Below are positions 5,915 through 28,501 of a DNA stretch of 33,749 nucleotides, piece after piece. Source of the DNA: a virus. The first letter of the stretch is position 1; the number at the start of each line of letters is the position of its first letter. The translations under genes and the position numbers were made by a program. Below the pieces are notes generated by a model that made no database searches, was not told the DNA's origin, and saw nothing but the letters and a program-made list of their open reading frames with translations. The DNA lies in IMG/VR virus record IMGVR_UViG_3300044675_000735, positions 1 to 33,749 of that record; one strand, written 5' to 3'.

Positions 5915-6980
5915 TTACCAACTCCACCTCAGGCAATGCTTCGTCTTCAACAGCTCCAGCACCATCCTGACCATACAAGAATTCTTTCTTACACGCTTCA
6001 TCGATTTGGTCTAAGATATCTTTAGTGAAATACTTTTCTGGTTCTTCGTTGATGTTCTTACCGAACACTTTCACGCCATTAGACAATTCGTAGCGAGTAG
6101 ATACTTTCTTAATGATTCCATACTTCTCTGCGATATCAAGTAAGCCAAAGTATCTGTCAAGACCTGTGCTGTATGTAATTTTGATTTCAACTTGAGAGTT
6201 CTCTTTAGTCAAACGTGACTTCTGCAATTTGCAACGAACGATATTACCAACAACTTCAGTACCATCTTTGTCTTTACGCTTAGACAAGTAAACGATTGTG
6301 GATGCTGTGTACTTCAAGCCAGAACCACCAGACATTTCTTTAGTCGGGATGTATGCACCAACAACATCATAAACGTGATTTGTTACAAGCAAAGGTACAC
6401 CAATCTTAGCAAGTTTCAAATTCAATACACGAAATGTTGCTTTGAGAATTTGACTTTTAGTCATGTCTTTTGTTTCTTTACCTTCAGCAGTATCTTCCAT
6501 CTCTTTAGTAGAAGACAACTGACCGAGTGAGTCGAGTACCATCATCATCGGCTTACGCTTTGATTCTGCTTGTGCTTGATACTTCTCAATGATTTGCAAT
6601 GCAGTATGACGGAACTTTTGAATCGTATCTGGCTCAGAGATAACGACACGCTTAGTATCTACGCCTCGTGTTTCCATCATAGACTTCGTAACTGCGGCTT
6701 CAGTATCAAAGTAAATAACACCACCATCAGGATTTGCATCAAGGAATTGTTTAACAATACCAAGAACAAAGAAAGTCTTGCCTGTTGAAGACTCGCCAGC
6801 AAACGCTGTCACTTTGTTGTTCGGCACACCACCATAGATGCTACCGCTAAGTAGCGCATTTAGTGCATACGAACCTGTATCGATGCTACCACTAAACTCT
6901 GCTGACGCATCACCGTCTGCTAGAATTTTTGTGTCTTCATCTTTTAATTGGTCAACTAAATCTGTAAAAAAATTGCTCAT
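5904..6980 (-). CDS. uvsX: UvsX recombinase (RecA-like)
   Basis: This 358-residue protein is the phage strand-exchange recombinase. It forms filaments on single-stranded DNA, loaded by UvsY (also encoded here), and drives recombination-dependent replication. Walker A is GESSTGKT (62-69). VIYFDTE follows, with Walker B-type [11 protein letters not shown] near residue 146. The DNA-binding loop region and [12 protein letters not shown] match RecA/UvsX. The length is close to T4 UvsX (391), with a shorter acidic tail ([14 protein letters not shown]). Its ATG overlaps the TGA of the cytidylyltransferase gene (ATGA). Confidence 0.96.
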
Positions 6981-7477
6981 TGTGTTTTTCCTTCATAATA
7001 TTTGTTTAATAACTTTGGCGAGTGCTGTTCATACTCAACAACATCAGGTTCGCTTTTCTTCTGCATCTCTAACTCATAGGTACGCTTGCGGAGTTCCGAT
7101 GTACTATAACTATGATTTCTCACATGATAGTATAACTCAATTCCGTTCTCAATGCAATATTGTTTGCCAGTAAAGTCTTTATTTTTGTATTCTTCACCGA
7201 GAAATCTTATGTGCATTGTTTGCGTCATAATCAAATTGGCTAAGTCTTCTTCAGTATGGTAAACAAGAATCTCATCCACGTACTTACATGCTTGCAATTG
7301 AACGTAACGTTCATATACCGATTGCACAGGTTTGTTTTTTGTGCTAGGTCTATCTACAGTAGGATCGACCTGTAGCGCAACAATTAAATAGTCACATAAC
7401 TTTTTTTCCATCTTTAGCATCGTCACATGACCAGCATGAAACATATCAAATGATGAACAATTAAAACCAATTTTCAT
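6977..7477 (-). CDS. Glycerol-3-phosphate cytidylyltransferase-like enzyme (TagD type)
   Basis: This 166-residue protein has the complete cytidylyltransferase pattern: [18 protein letters not shown] with the HxGH motif at 14-17, [19 protein letters not shown] (the loop that contacts CTP), and YSTSELRKR near residue 118, equivalent to the RTxGISTT motif. The family makes CDP-glycerol or CDP-ethanolamine-like activated alcohols. A possible use is modification of surface sugars or nucleotides, but the substrate is unproven. Its stop overlaps the uvsX start (ATGA), so it is coupled to uvsX, an unexpected partner. Its N-terminus follows the membrane protein gene by 3 bp. Confidence 0.85.
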
Positions 7478-7480
7478 AAA

Positions 7481-8458
7481 TTATCTTTCTGCAAATTCCG
7501 CAAATTTTGATCTACCATCTCTGGTGTATTTGCGTTTAAACTCTTCTAATTCCTCTTTTGTCATGGGTATGGGTTCCATGAGTGTCGCATTCAAATTCTC
7601 TTCGCCAATAGGTTGTTGTGCTTTTTGTCTTCTCTTTTGCTTTGGTGCCACTGCAACAGGAGGAATATCAACTTGATAATCACCCATCTTCTCTTCTTTT
7701 TCTTTTGCTATTTGTCTTAGCGAAAAGTTACCAGCAATGACAAGTAGAACAGCCATTGGGTCAAACACAAGAACTAAAAGAATAATAACGAATCGTACAG
7801 ACTTATCTAGTAAATTAGAATCAATGCTATCGCCATAGATTAGCGCCGCAATATATTTGATTGGACCAACTTCTGCTTCCACTTTACGAATTTCGGTGGC
7901 GATAGGAGCCCGCTCTTCATTAAGAGTCGAAATCCGCTTGTTATATGTTTCGATTTCTTTAAGTATGCGATTACGTTCTGTCTGTTGGGCTTTGCGTAAA
8001 CTTGCCGCTTTTTCTGCACCCTTTTCGTTTGTTGAGCGAACCATAACTTGGTCCACAGATTCATCCATCTGTTTGAGCGTTTTGCGATTAACATCAATAT
8101 TATCCCTCTCAACTTTAATCTTCTCATCAATCATTGCAATTTTTGCAGAAACATCTCCACTGATAAGCGTTTGGTCGTTGTGTGCTTTAGAGAGATATCC
8201 AAAAATTCCCAATGATGTAATGAACATCAAGATAATAACTGCTACTGTAAAATAGTACTTCAGAAATCTTGGTGCGACAGACCAATTCTTATATGCCCAT
8301 GATGCGGCAATGAGTTTAGAAAACTCAAGCGCACCACCCATGATTGCAATTGGAATTGGGCTAGCCGCAAAGATAGCCATGAGTCCTATGACAGAATAGT
8401 ATGCGGCAATGGCAGACAATGATATAGCACATAATAAAGTAATCAACGCAAAAAGCAT
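7481..8458 (-). CDS. Membrane protein with central coiled coil
   Basis: This 325-residue protein has three hydrophobic segments in the first 90 residues (ALITLLCAISLSAIAAYYS, then PIPIAIMGGALEFSK, then TVAVIILMFITSLGIFGYL). A charged coiled coil of about 100 residues follows (roughly 105-200), then a fourth segment (IILLVLVFDPMAVLLVIAG, about 225-245). The C-terminal tail is basic and cytoplasmic-looking, with KQKRRQKAQQ. The pattern of membrane hairpin, coil and VFDPMA segment resembles unnamed proteins of other aquatic T4-like phages. A host-membrane role is inferred; the function is unknown. It follows its upstream neighbour by 1 bp. Confidence 0.7.
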   Translation of the reverse strand: MLFALITLLCAISLSAIAAYYSVIGLMAIFAASPIPIAIMGGALEFSKLIAASWAYKNWSVAPRFLKYYFTVAVIILMFITSLGIFGYLSKAHNDQTLISGDVSAKIAMIDEKIKVERDNIDVNRKTLKQMDESVDQVMVRSTNEKGAEKAASLRKAQQTERNRILKEIETYNKRISTLNEERAPIATEIRKVEAEVGPIKYIAALIYGDSIDSNLLDKSVRFVIILLVLVFDPMAVLLVIAGNFSLRQIAKEKEEKMGDYQVDIPPVAVAPKQKRRQKAQQPIGEENLNATLMEPIPMTKEELEEFKRKYTRDGRSKFAEFAER

Positions 8459-16531: not shown

Positions 16532-16805
16532 TTTGATTTCCTTCATTCAAGTCATGTACGTGTAGCATGATTATAGCATAGTGTAAAATTTTTAGCAAGT
16601 CTTTACGATTTCTTCCATCTTTCTTGCCATACCTTTGTGCATATTTCAGCACGTTACCAATACAGAATCCTTCACCATGTCCACCATCGATGATGAATTC
16701 TGTTGCTTGGAACTTATCACGGGAATAATGTTGCCCGTATGTTGTATCAATATAAGACTTCAGTTCCGCTAAAGTCTTATCTTCATTATATCGATAGTCA
16801 ATCAT
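16518..16805 (-). CDS. DUF3310 (SaV-like) protein
   Basis: This 95-residue protein contains the family signature: GHGEGFCIGNVLKYAQRYG, then NRKDLLKILHYAIIML in one helix. DUF3310 proteins occur in many phages and are often found among nucleotide metabolism or replication genes; the function is unproven. Its 3' end overlaps gp45 by 14 bp and its start overlaps the glycosyltransferase gene by 4 bp. The strong -10 box of the gp45 promoter lies inside it, which explains a stretch of unusual codons in its last third. Confidence 0.85.
   Translation of the reverse strand: MIDYRYNEDKTLAELKSYIDTTYGQHYSRDKFQATEFIIDGGHGEGFCIGNVLKYAQRYGKKDGRNRKDLLKILHYAIIMLHVHDLNEGNQNEIK
16570..16598 (-). promoter_or_regulatory. 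Internal sigma70 promoter for gp45
   Basis: Within the DUF3310 gene the minus strand reads TTGCTA (16593-16598), a 17-bp spacer and a perfect TATAAT (16570-16575) preceded by TGC (extended -10). Transcription would start near 16563, about 32 nt before the gp45 ATG. Confidence 0.75.
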
Positions 16806-17662
16806 TTCAAATTCGCAGATACATTTCGTTTCATAACATCATCACCAGCAGTGGGTGAAGCATTGATTGCCGCAAGTGCTTGCAAAGAACCACCGAAGAT
16901 ATAACTGCCTGCATGTTTCAAACGCATCCATGGAAGTAGCCATACTTTACCACCAGCTTTACGCATCCATTGGCAGAACATATAATCTTCTGACAGATAA
17001 CGCTTTGTGTTTGGGCAGATTACACAATCAAAGTATGCCATGATTTCTCTGCTACCATCAAAGTTTGCTGTACGCACATGATCTGGTTTGTAGCTTTGTC
17101 CTGGAAATGCTTTGTCGTATTTCTGAAGTGCTTCACGGGTAATCAACATAAAGCCTGTACCGCTTTCTTTCACTTCGATGGGTTCGTCAACACGAAATTG
17201 TGTAACGCCATCTGCTGGATTGAAAACGTAGTCACCAACAAACTCTTCGAGTTGATTTGGATTCTTATCTGCATAACCCTTGTCAACTGCAACTTTAATC
17301 TTCTCCCAAGAAATTGCTTTCTTTGGATATGGTCCGCAAACAACATCCATGTCATCACGGGTTGCCGCAAAGTGCATCATCACCAAAACGTCTTGTGGTT
17401 CAAAGTGAATATCACTGTCAATGAAAATCATATGGTCATAACCACTACGAACGAATTCGTCTGTTAGATAATTTCTAGCACGTTGTACTAGTGATTCATT
17501 GAAGATGAAGAATAGTTTAGCCTCAATACCATATTTGGTACAGAGAATCATGAGGTCGGTGATTGCTTTTGTATAAGCACCGTGGCATTGTCCACCATAC
17601 ATCGGTGTCGCAACAAAAAGTTTTTTCTTTCTTAGTTTTTGAATATCAAGTTCAAATTGCAT
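16802..17662 (-). CDS. GT-A type glycosyltransferase
   Basis: This 286-residue protein starts its catalytic domain at LFVATPMYGGQCHGAYTKAI. DHMIFIDSDIHFEPQ contains the DxD metal/nucleotide-sugar motif (D82, D84). YLSEDYMFCQWMRKAGGKVWL and LKHAGS follow the acceptor-site pattern. Enzymes of this kind move a sugar from an NDP-sugar to an acceptor, which could be DNA, a virion protein or host surface glycan. A late promoter (17692-17699) and a good GGAGAG site precede the gene, pointing to late expression and so perhaps to virion glycosylation. It overlaps DUF3310 by 4 bp. Confidence 0.85.
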   Translation of the reverse strand: MQFELDIQKLRKKKLFVATPMYGGQCHGAYTKAITDLMILCTKYGIEAKLFFIFNESLVQRARNYLTDEFVRSGYDHMIFIDSDIHFEPQDVLVMMHFAATRDDMDVVCGPYPKKAISWEKIKVAVDKGYADKNPNQLEEFVGDYVFNPADGVTQFRVDEPIEVKESGTGFMLITREALQKYDKAFPGQSYKPDHVRTANFDGSREIMAYFDCVICPNTKRYLSEDYMFCQWMRKAGGKVWLLPWMRLKHAGSYIFGGSLQALAAINASPTAGDDVMKRNVSANLK

Positions 17663-22029: not shown

Positions 22030-22641
22030 CTAAATAAAAAATTTTGTTAAATTAGCAGACTGATTGATAAAATCTTGATACTTTATTCTAGGTTTGCTGG
22101 TGAGGCTTGCGCTTGACAATTTTTTATTATCAAATTCAGCTAAAAGTTGTCTTGCTTTTTCTATTCGTTTGGGTTCTTCATACACCGCATCCATCACATC
22201 ATAGTAAGTAGCAACTCCAATTTTAAGAGTTTTGCAAATTTTTCTAATAGAACTTCCGTCCTCTCTCATTTTCATAACTTGTTTGCGTATATTTTCTCCA
22301 TCTTCACCATTCAGAGTACTTGGTCTTCCTAATTTTGTTCCTTCTGCTCTAGCCCTTTCAATGCCATCTTTAATTAATTCACTACTATTAATTTTTTGAA
22401 AAGTAACTACGCCATGCATAATTCTATGATGCCATGAACATAAAGTTAGTGTTGCATGTTCACTAATAAAGCCCCTATCAAACAAAGAATTAAAAATTTC
22501 TTTAGGTGTGCAATCTTTAATTGGCTTGGTATTATCATACTTAAGCGATTTTCGGTTTTCGCCAGTGTGAATTATTGGGTCTACATGATGTAAGTGTAGA
22601 TCGTCTTTTGATCCACACACTGCACAAAAATCTAATTTCAT
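22030..22641 (-). CDS. HNH endonuclease with resolvase-type helix-turn-helix tail
   Basis: This 203-residue protein starts with a zinc-ribbed HNH domain: CAVC (6-9), LHLHHVDP (15-22) and LCSWHHRIMHG (67-77). The middle sequence GIERARAEGTKLGRP (93-107) is the linker seen in serine recombinases. The HTH follows (SIRKICKTLKIGVATYYDVM), which is the Hin/resolvase DNA-binding domain. So a nuclease is joined to a borrowed DNA-binding module, the design of free-standing homing endonucleases. It has its own terminator behind it. G+C at 22261-22440 is 60 of 180 by my count, lower than core genes, in keeping with mobility. Confidence 0.88.
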   Translation of the reverse strand: MKLDFCAVCGSKDDLHLHHVDPIIHTGENRKSLKYDNTKPIKDCTPKEIFNSLFDRGFISEHATLTLCSWHHRIMHGVVTFQKINSSELIKDGIERARAEGTKLGRPSTLNGEDGENIRKQVMKMREDGSSIRKICKTLKIGVATYYDVMDAVYEEPKRIEKARQLLAEFDNKKLSSASLTSKPRIKYQDFINQSANLTKFFI

Positions 22642-22644
22642 AAT

Positions 22645-23580
22645 TTAACCCTGCCAATTTGTGACAAGTCTCATTCCATAATTGTTAGTTCCGTTTGGTA
22701 CGACTATGTTTGGTTTCAATCTCAACTGATTGCCTTTGAATTGAGAGTAGTCAACGTAATGGTGCCAACGATCATATCTCCAAACAACGCTAGAAACATC
22801 TGAGTGAACGTCAGCAAGCATTTGTGATTTTGCAATTGTGCCAGACTCATTGTATTTTTTGCCTTTTGCATCAACCAACTTATCTGCTTTAATTGCTTCA
22901 CCAGTTTCATCATCAAAGCCAACTTCAGCATGATAAAATTCTGTAGTATTGCCACCCTTGACAGTTTGAGTTGCGGCTTTACCTTGCATGAATACATTGA
23001 ATTGAATTGTACAATCACCATCTTTAAGAACGTCAAGACTTAGAATTGTGTCTTCATTGTAACGACCACGCCAACGATGTTTGCAAGCATTGTCAATCAA
23101 AAGACACGAATAGATTCGAGTGTTTTTCACAAATGGTGGATACTTCTGATTTGGTGCAATGAAGAATCGATATTGCAAACCAGACACAGGAACGTTTTCA
23201 AATCTATCAATAAACTGTTCACACACATAGAACAATACACCAGATTCGACACGAATTCGTTGGTTATTATGTAGTCGATAAAAGTCTGAAATGTTATCGT
23301 CCATCACCCAATGTTTTTCTGCACCGATAGAAATCGAATGATCCCATGCATAGTTTCTTGCACGACCAGGACCATCGCCATGATTTGAAAATGGCGCAAC
23401 AATCAATGTAACCCATGGTCTAATATTGAATGTGTCTAATGCTTTTTCATACAGCATTTCATCTTGAGGTTCAATGATGATGTAGTGTGGCACTTTCATT
23501 CTTGAAAGCGACTTTGAAGTAATCATTGAGTCTGCACGACCCTTTGATATGATGTACACTGGATGTTCTGGATTATGCAT
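22645..23580 (-). CDS. TET-associated-type glycosyltransferase (TAGT)
   Basis: This 311-residue protein begins VYIISKGRADSMITSKSLS and continues with PHYIIIEPQDEMLYEKAL, GPGRARNYAWDHS and HWVMDDNISDFYRL, where DDN is the DxD-like metal site. This is the layout of the TAGT family that Iyer and colleagues linked to base modification: members are found next to TET/JBP dioxygenases in phages and are thought to glycosylate hydroxymethyl-pyrimidines in DNA. No TET/JBP gene is seen in this window, but two other 2OG oxygenases, a methyltransferase and dCMP deaminase are close by. Protein or other acceptors remain possible. Confidence 0.82.
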   Translation of the reverse strand: MHNPEHPVYIISKGRADSMITSKSLSRMKVPHYIIIEPQDEMLYEKALDTFNIRPWVTLIVAPFSNHGDGPGRARNYAWDHSISIGAEKHWVMDDNISDFYRLHNNQRIRVESGVLFYVCEQFIDRFENVPVSGLQYRFFIAPNQKYPPFVKNTRIYSCLLIDNACKHRWRGRYNEDTILSLDVLKDGDCTIQFNVFMQGKAATQTVKGGNTTEFYHAEVGFDDETGEAIKADKLVDAKGKKYNESGTIAKSQMLADVHSDVSSVVWRYDRWHHYVDYSQFKGNQLRLKPNIVVPNGTNNYGMRLVTNWQG

Positions 23581-24361
23581 TCACTCTACTCCATATTGTT
23601 GGTTTGTTGTTCCACATTTTGCATAACACTTTTTCGTATCCACTCTTTACTAAGAATGAATTGAATTTGGCAGAAATTTTTGATTGATCTACAATTTCAT
23701 TTTCATATTCGTATGTCTTGAAGTGACCAATCGAATGTGTGTTGAATGCGTTTGCGATAATAAAATACTTAGGCGAAATCGCATCAATGATTTCTTTTAC
23801 ATGTTCTGTTGGATTTTGAATGTGTTCAAAGTATTCAGATGCAAAAACAAAATCTACGTTATGACCTATCTCATGCACACTTTCAATCAGATTAAAATCG
23901 TGTCTTTTTGCCATGACTTCACATAGTTTCCATTGTTTAGTGTTTTTCAAATTGATACCATATGCCTTTGCGTTGGGCAAAAGAGTCTTCAGCGCACATG
24001 TACTATAACTGATTCCACAGCCAATGTCAACAAATGATGCAGAAGTTTTAAGTAAATCATAAACAGATTCACCATTCTCCATTGATGGTTTCAACAATCG
24101 CTTGATGTAACTTCTACTGTATGTTCTGTAGCAATTGAAAATGTCTACAAAATAGTAATCATCATCATACACTTTAAATGCATCATCTAAATTGTTCTGA
24201 TCTAAATTTTCATACCACTCAGAAGTCAGTCTCTGAAAAAGAGAATCATCTCGCAACATTCTCTTTGCTTCACCATTGTCGATGTTGAAAATATTTCCAT
24301 AATCATTTAGAAACTTATCAAAGAGAATCAGTGGCTTCTCTGTCAAAAAATCATTCTGCAT
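23573..24361 (-). CDS. SAM-dependent methyltransferase
   Basis: The frame opens at a TTG (24401-24403) far inside the upstream gene. I prefer the ATG at 24359-24361 (or 24362-24364), giving about 262 residues. The class I fold is clear: motif I VDIGCGISYS (111-120), AYGINLKNTKQWKL for the second strand, and DFVFASEYFEHIQNPTEHV (a motif IV region) followed by YFIIANAF. No target-recognition domain is seen and there is no NPPY-type DNA-methylase motif, so the substrate is unknown. About 100 helical residues precede the core. It overlaps the glycosyltransferase gene by 8 bp, suggesting joint expression. Confidence 0.82.
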   Translation of the reverse strand: MQNDFLTEKPLILFDKFLNDYGNIFNIDNGEAKRMLRDDSLFQRLTSEWYENLDQNNLDDAFKVYDDDYYFVDIFNCYRTYSRSYIKRLLKPSMENGESVYDLLKTSASFVDIGCGISYSTCALKTLLPNAKAYGINLKNTKQWKLCEVMAKRHDFNLIESVHEIGHNVDFVFASEYFEHIQNPTEHVKEIIDAISPKYFIIANAFNTHSIGHFKTYEYENEIVDQSKISAKFNSFLVKSGYEKVLCKMWNNKPTIWSRVNA

Positions 24362-24713
24362 CATCGACAATCCATCTAAGAAGAGAGTTTTGTGTTCTAT
24401 CAAGTGCTGGATGCCAGATGCTCTTTGTCTTGTTTGACAGATTCTGATTAACTAGCTTTGCAAATTCTTTGTAGTCCGCTTCAGTTCGAAAATGCACATA
24501 GATTGTTTTGTATGTGGGATTGTCTTCTTGCTCAAACTCGGGCATACCTTTCCAAAGTTTTTTCCATTCTTTCTCACCTTGGTCAGAATACTTCTCTTTC
24601 TCTTCTTCATCTAGATTCATGTGATCTAAAAGGGAAACAGGCTTATCGATAGTCTTTTTCTCACCGATCAAATTCTGATACTGAGATGATTCTTCAATTT
24701 GTGTTTTTGTCAT
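24351..24713 (-). CDS. Conserved small phage protein (TIYVHFRTEADYKEF motif)
   Basis: This 120-residue acidic protein has a C-terminal domain with YKTIYVHFRTEADYKEFAKL, KTKSIWHPALDR. I recognise this as a recurrent phage module, seen in many phages next to ParB-like or DNA-modifying genes, but its role is not known. The first 60 residues are polar and probably flexible, with a Trp-rich GEKEWKKLWKGMPEFEQ. It lies between dCMP deaminase and the methyltransferase, overlapping the latter's start. This supports a link to the modification cluster. Confidence 0.7.
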   Translation of the reverse strand: MTKTQIEESSQYQNLIGEKKTIDKPVSLLDHMNLDEEEKEKYSDQGEKEWKKLWKGMPEFEQEDNPTYKTIYVHFRTEADYKEFAKLVNQNLSNKTKSIWHPALDRTQNSLLRWIVDDAE

Positions 24714-24723
24714 TTGTTTACAC

Positions 24724-25158
24724 TCATATTTGTTTTACAGTTATACCACATTTATTTAGGAAAACGATACCGCCATCATCACGATAATCTTCGCCATAGA
24801 ATACTTCTTTAATGCCGCTTTGAAATATCATTTTAGCACACTCTATGCATGGAGAGCAAGTGATGAACATACTTGCACCATCACCACTTTCGGTAGACTT
24901 AGCGAGTTTTGCTATTGCGTTAGACTCTGCATGGAGAACTTCAGTTTTTGTCTTGAGTACAGGACCTTCGTGGGTATGTCCAACAACTTGTTCACAATTG
25001 TTATCCCATCCACTTGGCATACCATTGTACCCGATTGAGATGATGCGATTATCTTTAACGATAACAGCACCAACTTGTTTGCGTTTAGCAGTACTCAATT
25101 CAGCAAAGACTCTTGCAGTCTTCATGTATGCACCGAGATATTTCTCTTTAATCATCAC
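24724..25158 (-). CDS. cd: dCMP deaminase
   Basis: This 144-residue enzyme converts dCMP to dUMP, feeding thymidylate synthesis. The zinc and catalytic residues are visible: LHAESNAI (H76, E78) and CSPCIECAKM (C104, C107). RKQVGAVIVKDNRIISIGYNGMPSG is the substrate loop, and GYNG is typical of the family. The region about residues 56-61 could carry extra zinc or regulatory residues, as in T4 Cd. It overlaps the upstream oxygenase gene by 11 bp. In phages with altered pyrimidines this enzyme shifts the dC/dT pools, so it fits the cluster. Confidence 0.92.
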   Translation of the reverse strand: MMIKEKYLGAYMKTARVFAELSTAKRKQVGAVIVKDNRIISIGYNGMPSGWDNNCEQVVGHTHEGPVLKTKTEVLHAESNAIAKLAKSTESGDGASMFITCSPCIECAKMIFQSGIKEVFYGEDYRDDGGIVFLNKCGITVKQI

Positions 25159-25681
25159 GGTGTTCTATGTAATTAAAGTTAATTACGCATCTAACTTTTT
25201 GATCTGTGCATGTTGTTCCTGTATGGAGAATTTTTTGGTCAAAAATAACAAGTCTATTTGCAACAGATTCAATTTCAGTACCGTCTCCTAAAATAGTCAC
25301 ACCATCATTAGAGTTTACATAATATATTGCAGTTTTTCTATCGCTAGATTTACTATTAAAATCAGTATGATAATCAAATGTATGTCTAACTTCAGTTCTA
25401 GGATTTAAATTTGCTTTAATTTTAATAATGGCTTCTGGATTTAAATAATCAATGATGGGTTGAAAAAGTTGCAAATATTGACTTGTTTGGGAACCATTCA
25501 GATATAACATATGGACAAATTGCCAATTATATAAATTGTCATTTTCTTGTGAAACTACGGAATCAAAATAATACCAAGGAAACAAAGTAAACCCTAATTT
25601 ATTCTCTATTAAATTTTCTTTAATATTGTTAGCTAAAGATTCTGAAAGAAGATTATCAATTATTTTATATTCACATTTCAT
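25148..25681 (-). CDS. 2OG-Fe(II) oxygenase-like protein, low G+C
   Basis: This 177-residue protein has the double-stranded beta-helix pattern: YHTD (H105, D107), then KTAIYYVNSNDGVTIL, KILHTG (H153) and RCVINF (R164, which would bind 2-oxoglutarate). It resembles oxygenases common in aquatic T4-like phages. The substrate could be a protein, nucleotide or sugar. G+C at 25261-25440 is 51 of 180 by my count, against about 66 of 180 in gp46, so it was probably acquired separately. It overlaps the dCMP deaminase gene by 11 bp. Confidence 0.75.
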   Translation of the reverse strand: MKCEYKIIDNLLSESLANNIKENLIENKLGFTLFPWYYFDSVVSQENDNLYNWQFVHMLYLNGSQTSQYLQLFQPIIDYLNPEAIIKIKANLNPRTEVRHTFDYHTDFNSKSSDRKTAIYYVNSNDGVTILGDGTEIESVANRLVIFDQKILHTGTTCTDQKVRCVINFNYIEHRDD

Positions 25682-27883: not shown

Positions 27884-28501
27884 TTATCTAAATTTTGGTC
27901 CTACTACCCAAACAACTAAAGACTTACGAACTCCTTTAGTGACAGGAGCAACCTTATGCATCAACCAAGATGGAAATAGAATTGCTGTTCCTGCTTTCAA
28001 GTCAATTACACAACCATCAGCACTTAAGTTAATATAAAATTCTCCGCCCTCAAAATCAACACCAGGCTCATTTAACAAAAGTGTCATAGATAATTTTCTA
28101 GTTTCAATACCATCAATAGATCGTAAATTATCGCCATTGAACATAATATCCACATGATAGTCATAGTGTCCTGCATCTTCCATACGATATTCTGCATATT
28201 GGTAAAATTCATATCCACTTATATCATATCCAAACGAATCCCAATTAAAATGCATAATAAATTGATTGAGTTTATCAAAAATCCATTGATTACTTTCATT
28301 TGGTCTTTGATGATTTATTTTACTTACTCTAGGACCAGAAATACCATCATTAGTAACACCATCAACTAATGAAATTTTGGTAGAAATTTCAATAATTTTT
28401 TCAAGTTCATCTTTATTGAAAACATCATTAACACATACATGGTGGTGTGTTACATGATTTTTTTGTATTGGATGATTAGTAATTGTTTGATATATACTCA
28501 T
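27884..28501 (-). CDS. 2OG-Fe(II) oxygenase (PKHD type) between gp46 and gp47
   Basis: This 205-residue protein has the full catalytic set: GHYDYHVDIMF (H116, D118), then LLLNEPGVDFEGGEFYI, FPSWLMHKVAPVTKGVRKS (H182, R192). It resembles prolyl-hydroxylase-like PKHD enzymes (PiuC family). The target could be a phage or host protein, or a base. It is inserted between gp47 and gp46: its ATG overlaps the gp47 TGA (ATGA), and it ends 1 bp before gp46. G+C at 28201-28380 is 50 of 180, much lower than neighbouring gp47 (50 of 120 at 29041-29160), so it appears recently acquired. Confidence 0.88.
   Translation of the reverse strand: MSIYQTITNHPIQKNHVTHHHVCVNDVFNKDELEKIIEISTKISLVDGVTNDGISGPRVSKINHQRPNESNQWIFDKLNQFIMHFNWDSFGYDISGYEFYQYAEYRMEDAGHYDYHVDIMFNGDNLRSIDGIETRKLSMTLLLNEPGVDFEGGEFYINLSADGCVIDLKAGTAILFPSWLMHKVAPVTKGVRKSLVVWVVGPKFR

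Follow-up and report, generated by a model that had tools for sequence, protein, structure and literature searches.

In T6, the gene of the T2/T6 beta-glucosyl-HMC-alpha-glucosyltransferase, the TAGT (PF20691) of T-even 5hmC glucosylation, lies beside gp42, between uvsX and the DNA polymerase gene. A second form of phage hypermodification, in which a TAGT is linked to TET/JBP, is said to have been described by Iyer et al. 2013 and Burke et al. 2021. In two further reports, the TAGTs of known chemistry all act on a base that is hydroxylated or previously glucosylated, and both the TAGT family, with its link to the T-even pathway, and the occurrence of solitary TAGTs are already described (PMC13216743, PMC13390438). 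The first of these, a survey from 2026 of DNA glycosyltransferases of the T-even type, finds solitary TAGTs in about two in five genomes (288 of the 753 phage genomes that carry a glycosyltransferase); these TAGTs are functionally undefined and are suggested to be novel transferases (PMC13216743). The locus described here resembles them in having a TAGT without an alpha-GT or beta-GT. It also resembles the arabinosylated 5-hydroxycytosine pathway of RB69/NP-like phages (PMC13390438) in its T4-like background, a second sugar-adding step and sugar-nucleotide genes. In contrast, the thymidylate-synthase-superfamily 5-hydroxy-dCMP synthase of that pathway was not detected here.

The locus was analysed in a bacteriophage record of IMG/VR (33,749 bases; this whole stretch is referred to as the window). 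With moderate confidence, its genes for a small domain protein (p120), a methyltransferase (MT) and the TAGT are read as a DNA-glycosylation cassette that would replace the hydroxymethylase island, with MT capping the sugar. Unlike the survey, the accessible parts of which name no partner (PMC13216743), the present comparison would provide solitary TAGTs with a named obligate partner domain, p120, a ParB-like tie through fusions, an exchangeable tailoring gene and an apparent replacement of the gp42 island. The literature searched, coverage of which was partial, yielded no report of p120 or its fusions, nor of a swappable tailoring gene or a gp42-island replacement.

Gene content of the locus and its conserved unit

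On its minus strand, the window has a set of replication genes of the T4 type, after which come the tail tube and major head protein genes (Table 1). The closest match to its DNA polymerase is from marine Synechococcus phages, at 53% identity, which indicates that the phage has no close cultured relative in the collection searched. In agreement with the initial annotation, five adjacent minus-strand open reading frames are present at 22645-25681; four of these had been named, and the one left unnamed, p120, proved to be the most conserved partner of the TAGT. This arrangement is not due to chance, as orthologues with 88-100% identity occur in the same order in many other contigs.

Table 1. Genes of the locus and other features of the window.
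Feature	Coordinates	Strand	Profile matches
TAGT-family GT-A glycosyltransferase, 311 aa	22645..23580	-	Pfam TAGT 2.4e-40; PHROG 842 2.9e-38
MT, class I SAM-dependent methyltransferase	23573..24364 (listed ORF 23573-24403, TTG)	-	Methyltransf_11 6.2e-5
p120, small W-x-x-MPE(F/Y)...KTKS-x-W-x-P domain protein, TAGT partner	24351..24713	-	
dCMP deaminase	24724..25158	-	PHROG 174 1e-51; dCMP_cyt_deam_1 1.5e-23
2OG-Fe(II) oxygenase	25148..25681	-	PHROG 274 2.7e-47; 2OG-FeII_Oxy_3 1.1e-5 (26.8 bits, slightly below the 27-bit cut-off)
Second 2OG oxygenase	27884-28501		
HNH + resolvase-type HTH protein	22030..22641	-	HTH_7 6.3e-7; HNH 0.005
T4-type genes gp41, uvsX, gp43, regA, gp62, gp44, gp45, gp46, gp47, gp55, uvsW, uvsY		-	

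The glycosyltransferase belongs to the TAGT family, matching PF20691 with 139 bits (cut-off 27.5) over model positions 2-205 of 205. Its DD(N) motif (D94, D95, N96) and N175-x-D177-T178 are invariant in an alignment of 12 diverse TAGTs. The protein is predicted to transfer a sugar onto a DNA base. The Pfam family and GT-A motifs are shared with the T2/T6 enzyme. In contrast to that system, BLAST of the window TAGT against the T6 TAGT gave no meaningful alignment, near-complete relatives carry no detected gp42, and the window has the p120 partner and a tailoring methyltransferase. For MT, a start at ATG 24364 is likelier than one at TTG 24403 because close relatives begin at the ATG. From this ATG, the gene overlaps p120 by 14 nt and the TAGT gene by 8 nt, as expected for a putative co-translated unit.

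To define the conserved genes, several hundred loci gathered via TAGT, MT and p120 relatives were compared, with TAGT relatives collected from 71 viral loci and 24 phage records. Among loci retrieved by the TAGT alone, p120 lies ≤1.6 kb upstream in 30 of 31 dereplicated TAGTs, and in the single exception it is found farther upstream, two genes off. Searches with p120 only returned loci of which nearly all have a TAGT adjoining or one gene off. Five TAGT loci initially scored without p120 had been retrieved using the p120 query, so these absences are probably artefacts of the ORF caller. The two remaining genes of the five behave differently from what the initial annotation had proposed. The adjacent 2OG oxygenase, taken there for the base oxidase, is replaced by a peptide deformylase in relatives that share the p120-MT-TAGT order (L003-L010, L105 and others), and it was therefore rejected as a TET substitute or conserved member. 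The dCMP deaminase, regarded as integral to the cluster, is instead a loose neighbour: it is found with the module in the close clade and in certain other loci, is missing from most other TAGT loci and, adjoining the TAGT in only part of the T4-like loci, was rejected as a core member. Judged by gene order, the conserved unit is p120, a tailoring gene and the TAGT, and the five genes would not constitute one pathway. In non-T4 loci, the genes around the module encode helicases, primases, nucleases and N6/N4 DNA methylases; in some loci, its neighbours are Mom and N6/N4 DNA methylase genes.

p120 fusions and the tailoring position

p120 matches no PHROG and gives no significant hit in Pfam, and the top match of a PDB profile search, the UPF3 RRM, was not significant (E 0.41). 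An AF2 model of p120 was unusable (pLDDT 65, pTM 0.28). The relationships of this domain are instead visible in its fusions. It forms the N-terminal part of the TAGT in three viral loci (L039, L045, L049), Aeromonas phage Aeh1 and Tenacibaculum phage PTm1, as well as in several bacterial loci. It also forms the C-terminal part of ParB_N proteins encoded immediately upstream of the TAGT in five loci recognised by Pfam (L079, L225, L235, L239, L241), and additional cases were recognised by eye. In L079, MT is in turn the C-terminal part of the TAGT, within a 553-aa open frame. Such a TAGT-MT fusion is probably the reason why protein families merged in single-linkage clustering. In many phages, ParB relatives of the L079 protein are part of proteins annotated as DNA methylases, and in HTVC112P and MED4-184 they adjoin Tet_JBP and FkbM genes, although the ParB proteins of these two phages gave no match to the p120 profile. 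The locus thus resembles the TET/JBP-TAGT system in its TAGT family and in the ParB and FkbM genes that stand beside TET/JBP in these two phages; it differs in that no Tet_JBP was detected in about 70 TAGT/p120 records (sets of 49 and 23).

In Pfam, the MT sequence is recognised by general models of class I methyltransferases alone, and tblastn found no match to it in cultured phages. Its predicted fold is of class I (AF2 mean pLDDT 93.4), and the SAM-binding motif D113-x-G-x-G117 (D113, G115, G117) is invariant in the MT alignment, so both features of a class I small-molecule or sugar methyltransferase are present; this fold does not discriminate between sugar, base and small-molecule substrates. 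In the PDB, the model best matches O-, C- and N-methyltransferases, with Z of about 12-13.7 over ~160-218 aligned residues at 3.0-4.6 Å and with O-methyltransferases at the highest Z (13.7). Assignment as a DNA C5 or N6/N4 methylase was rejected, as no such model matched and the fold search led to small-molecule methyltransferases; the lack of DNA methylases among the matches listed does not by itself rule them out. The enzyme is thus most like small-molecule methyltransferases and is not a recognised DNA methylase.

Between or beside p120 and the TAGT, the tailoring genes found are MT, f66 (which is TAGT-like too, matching Pfam TAGT at 4.9e-7), GT8, GT-B and an FkbM methyltransferase. Mapped on a tree that comprises 91 TAGTs, the 9 rows with MT require at least 9 changes of the MT state, and at least 26 changes are required for all tailoring states together, which suggests that the tailoring gene is often swapped. 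For 58 of 87 TAGTs, no tailoring gene was recognised by the profiles used; tailoring is therefore either optional or more diverse than these profiles detect. A search with the MT profile alone returned 36 dereplicated loci, 29 with a TAGT within ≤5 kb and 7 without. It is the exchange of MT with glycosyltransferase and FkbM genes that suggests a sugar as the substrate of MT.

Search for a base hydroxylase and the gp42 slot

The initial annotation had correctly recorded that TET/JBP and dCMP hydroxymethylase are missing from the window, in which no Tet_JBP and no thymidylate-synthase-family gene were found. The searches also covered the full length of two near-complete relatives (G024, 149,598 bases; G001, 152,753 bases), both of which are linear IMG/VR contigs of uncertain completeness. 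The gene order in G024 is PDF-dCMPd-p120-MT-TAGT, with p120, MT and TAGT ordered as in the window, and that in G001 is p120-f66-TAGT. Neither of these ~150-kb relatives contains a thymidylate-synthase-family gene (PF00303) or Tet_JBP, and a C5-cytosine DNA methylase (PF00145) was found in 0 of 13 records, G001 and G024 included. The suggestion that a TET/JBP or hydroxymethylase gene might lie outside the window thus found no counterpart in either relative. The same searches detected the controls, T6 gp42 and the TET of HTVC112P and MED4-184, and a gp42 of the same phage group matches the thymidylate-synthase Pfam model at 2e-20. Among all TAGT/p120 records searched, a single viral contig gave thymidylate-synthase matches, besides three isolates (Aeh1, Kuja and PTm1). 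Neither a TET/JBP-coupled TAGT pathway nor the T-even 5hmC pathway accords with these results, as Tet_JBP and the gp42-type dCMP hydroxymethylase (PF00303), respectively, are missing from the window (a partial genome), G001 and G024.

In six loci that have MT without a TAGT (L285, L288, L292, L294, L297, L300), an orthologue of T6 gp42 (about 55-62% identity) lies ~2 kb downstream of MT, along with a MazG/PRA-PH-like pyrophosphohydrolase. A full reading of L288 and L294 gave the order gp46-PDF-MT-pyrimidine-dimer-glycosylase-like-MazG-like-...-gp42. When this gp42 was used as a query, 80 loci were obtained, none with a TAGT or p120 in the flanks covered; gp42 loci also contain MT, FkbM, f66-like and GT-B-like genes. 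Overall, in a query-driven sample with flanks of ≤10 kb, TAGT/p120 is present in 301 loci, gp42 in 86 and both in 0 of 387 (55 TAGT/p120 versus 28 gp42 when dereplicated by gp46). Given this sampling, the exclusivity holds for the slot, and genome-wide only in G001 and G024. Both islands share this slot, which is bordered by gp47-gp46-PDF on one side and phrog_1574-gp45-gp44 on the other. The simplest account would be that a p120-X-TAGT cassette replaced the hydroxymethylcytosine island in the T4-like phage group.

Proposed DNA glycosylation and its alternatives

Most likely, the phage would decorate its own DNA with a methylated sugar by means of the three-gene unit. In the proposed scheme, the TAGT would transfer a sugar from a nucleotide sugar to a base of the phage DNA, with p120 serving as its obligate accessory domain and, in view of the p120 fusions to ParB-like domains that other phages have, probably as its DNA-recruiting part. 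MT would then methylate the added sugar, most likely to give an O-methyl cap. This last step is proposed to be exchangeable, since the tailoring place is taken by different genes in other phages: a second TAGT-like enzyme, GT8, GT-B or FkbM would act in place of MT, which is what would be favoured by an arms race against host restriction. The slot that the cassette takes in T4-like relatives would be that of the gp42 (dCMP hydroxymethylase) island, which it would replace. The assignment of DNA as the acceptor is suggested by the fusions, the genomic context and the exchange with gp42; the order of steps and the O-methylation of the sugar are suggested by the exchange of MT, FkbM and glycosyltransferase genes. 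DNA modification, as initially annotated, is accordingly kept as the best reading for the TAGT and its neighbour, in view of the ParB_N/TAGT/MT fusions, the Mom and DNA-methylase neighbours and the gp42 exchange, and is given up for the 2OG oxygenase and the dCMP deaminase. More tentatively, the TAGT and p120 may glycosylate a base without a pre-installed hydroxyl from any known hydroxylase, with the gp42 pathway replaced and the tailoring swappable. That such hydroxylase-free chemistry spans a large T4-like phage group and unrelated small phages is likewise a tentative proposal.

A hydroxylated pyrimidine (5hmC, 5hoC or 5hmU) could also be glycosylated as in T-even phages and its sugar capped by MT, the hydroxyl being supplied by a Pfam-divergent enzyme or a phage 2OG oxygenase. 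This alternative is a possible one, in keeping with the acceptors used in all characterised TAGT chemistry (PMC13216743, PMC13390438), with the two 2OG oxygenases of the window and with the presence of MT together with gp42 in other phages. However, the gp42 and TET models that detect the controls find nothing in G001 or G024, and the 2OG genes are patchy, being missing at the window's positions in several close relatives and, by PF13640, from G001. The loci in which MT adjoins gp42 with no TAGT within the flanks covered, together with the FkbM gene beside TET/JBP in HTVC112P and MED4-184, where no TAGT was recognised, would also fit an MT that has the base as its target (a hydroxymethyl group or an exocyclic amine, for instance) and makes or caps a group independently of the sugar. 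This appears rather doubtful, as the gp42 contigs are fragmentary and have a 365-aa gene of unassigned function after gp42, whereas in TAGT loci MT swaps with glycosyltransferases and is found fused to the TAGT.

The ParB_N-p120 and p120-TAGT fusions, the replication-gene context in unrelated phages, the Mom and DNA-methylase neighbours and the exchange with the gp42 island make a non-DNA acceptor unlikely, such as a virion protein or, in superinfection exclusion, the surface of the host cell. Such roles have been proposed for phage glycosyltransferase clusters, and sugar genes of phages may have a part in surface polysaccharides as well (PMC7824862). G024 encodes a GDP-mannose dehydratase together with a protein resembling sugar C-methyltransferases, which would be in line with such roles. 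The initially annotated pathway, in which the 2OG oxygenase oxidises the base, the TAGT glycosylates it and the deaminase and methyltransferase adjust pyrimidines, draws on the adjacency of these genes in the window. It is highly improbable given the peptide deformylase found in the oxygenase's place and the absence of the deaminase from most other TAGT loci. The partner domain, its ParB-like tie, the exchangeable tailoring gene and the place of the unit in the gp42 slot make the question of what a TAGT targets without a hydroxymethylase or TET one that could be addressed with the DNA of existing phage isolates. If the cassette does represent new DNA sugar chemistry, it would be relevant to phage evasion of restriction, Cas nucleases and base-removing defences and to enzyme tools.

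Several further genes were considered. The sugar-nucleotide genes of G024 are suggestive and have no synteny link to the cassette. In the window, a nucleotidyltransferase (6977-7477), a 325-aa protein (7481-8458) and the protein at 16802-17662 were rejected as sugar-pathway members, as nothing ties these genes to the cassette. Finally, the HNH/HTH protein is probably a mobile nuclease inserted after the TAGT gene, outside the cassette, and in relatives other open reading frames are found at this insertion point.

Insertions and oxygenases around the cassette

The ORFs immediately following the glycosyltransferase gene TAGT differ among close relatives (window, L004, L005, L007 and L008), and among those compared, L003 and L009 have no ORF inserted directly after TAGT. 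This point is a hot spot for mobile nucleases adjoining a modification gene. The second 2OG-Fe(II) oxygenase of the window is patchily distributed, being present in some close relatives and missing from others. The window gene at 25148-25681 belongs to PHROG 274, but the model it matches is that of a 2OG-Fe(II) oxygenase; the PHROG label "DNA endonuclease V" looks wrong.

Features of the window and of other collected loci (L-numbers)
Feature	Locus and position	Remarks
Inserted ORF after TAGT	window 22030-22641	HNH + resolvase HTH
Inserted ORF after TAGT	L007 5571-6032	endonuclease VII-like
Inserted ORFs after TAGT	L004 11298-12011; L005 11761-12426; L008 4844-5884	other ORFs
Second 2OG-Fe(II) oxygenase	window 27884-28501	between gp46 and gp47
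Two genes after gp42	L350 10643-12930; also L352, L345	365-aa and 397-aa
HTVC112P gp18	L260 4127-5035	annotated DnaJ/SNF2; Tet_JBP 1.1e-29
MED4-184 CPAG_00035	L259 4777-5562	annotated queuine tRNA-ribosyltransferase; Tet_JBP 3.4e-6, below cut-off
Mom-family gene region	L034/L035 6554-8782; also L036, L041	directly upstream of p120-f66-TAGT; Pfam 1.6e-48
p120-TAGT fusion region	L234 4287-10834, Marivivens donghaensis KCTC 42776	bacterial chromosome; recombinase-like genes nearby
p120-TAGT fusion region	L246 9341-10945	bacterial chromosome; recombinase-like genes nearby
Interrupted uvsX	L184 14176-16298 (G024)	inserted stretch holds opposite-strand ORF
Adenylate/guanylate cyclase catalytic-domain gene	L186 5541-6776 (G024)	phage-encoded; Pfam 3.4e-9

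Modification genes in other settings

Following the dCMP hydroxymethylase gene gp42 in three loci, the 365-aa gene has no PDB match and the 397-aa gene shows a weak likeness to the HhaI/HaeIII C5 methylases (E 0.005-0.013). In both control phages, HTVC112P and MED4-184, ParB-like and FkbM genes adjoin the Tet_JBP-matching gene. The island that joins Mom to the partner domain p120, the second TAGT-like protein f66 and TAGT possibly brings two DNA modifications together. In L034 and L035, the gene preceding Mom resembles ParB by eye, with no match in Pfam.

Chromosomal fusions and the relative G024

The chromosomal p120-TAGT fusion regions may be genomic islands. L234 additionally carries f66 and an N6/N4-type DNA methylase near the fusion. 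In the near-complete relative G024, the stretch splitting uvsX is probably an intron or homing insertion.
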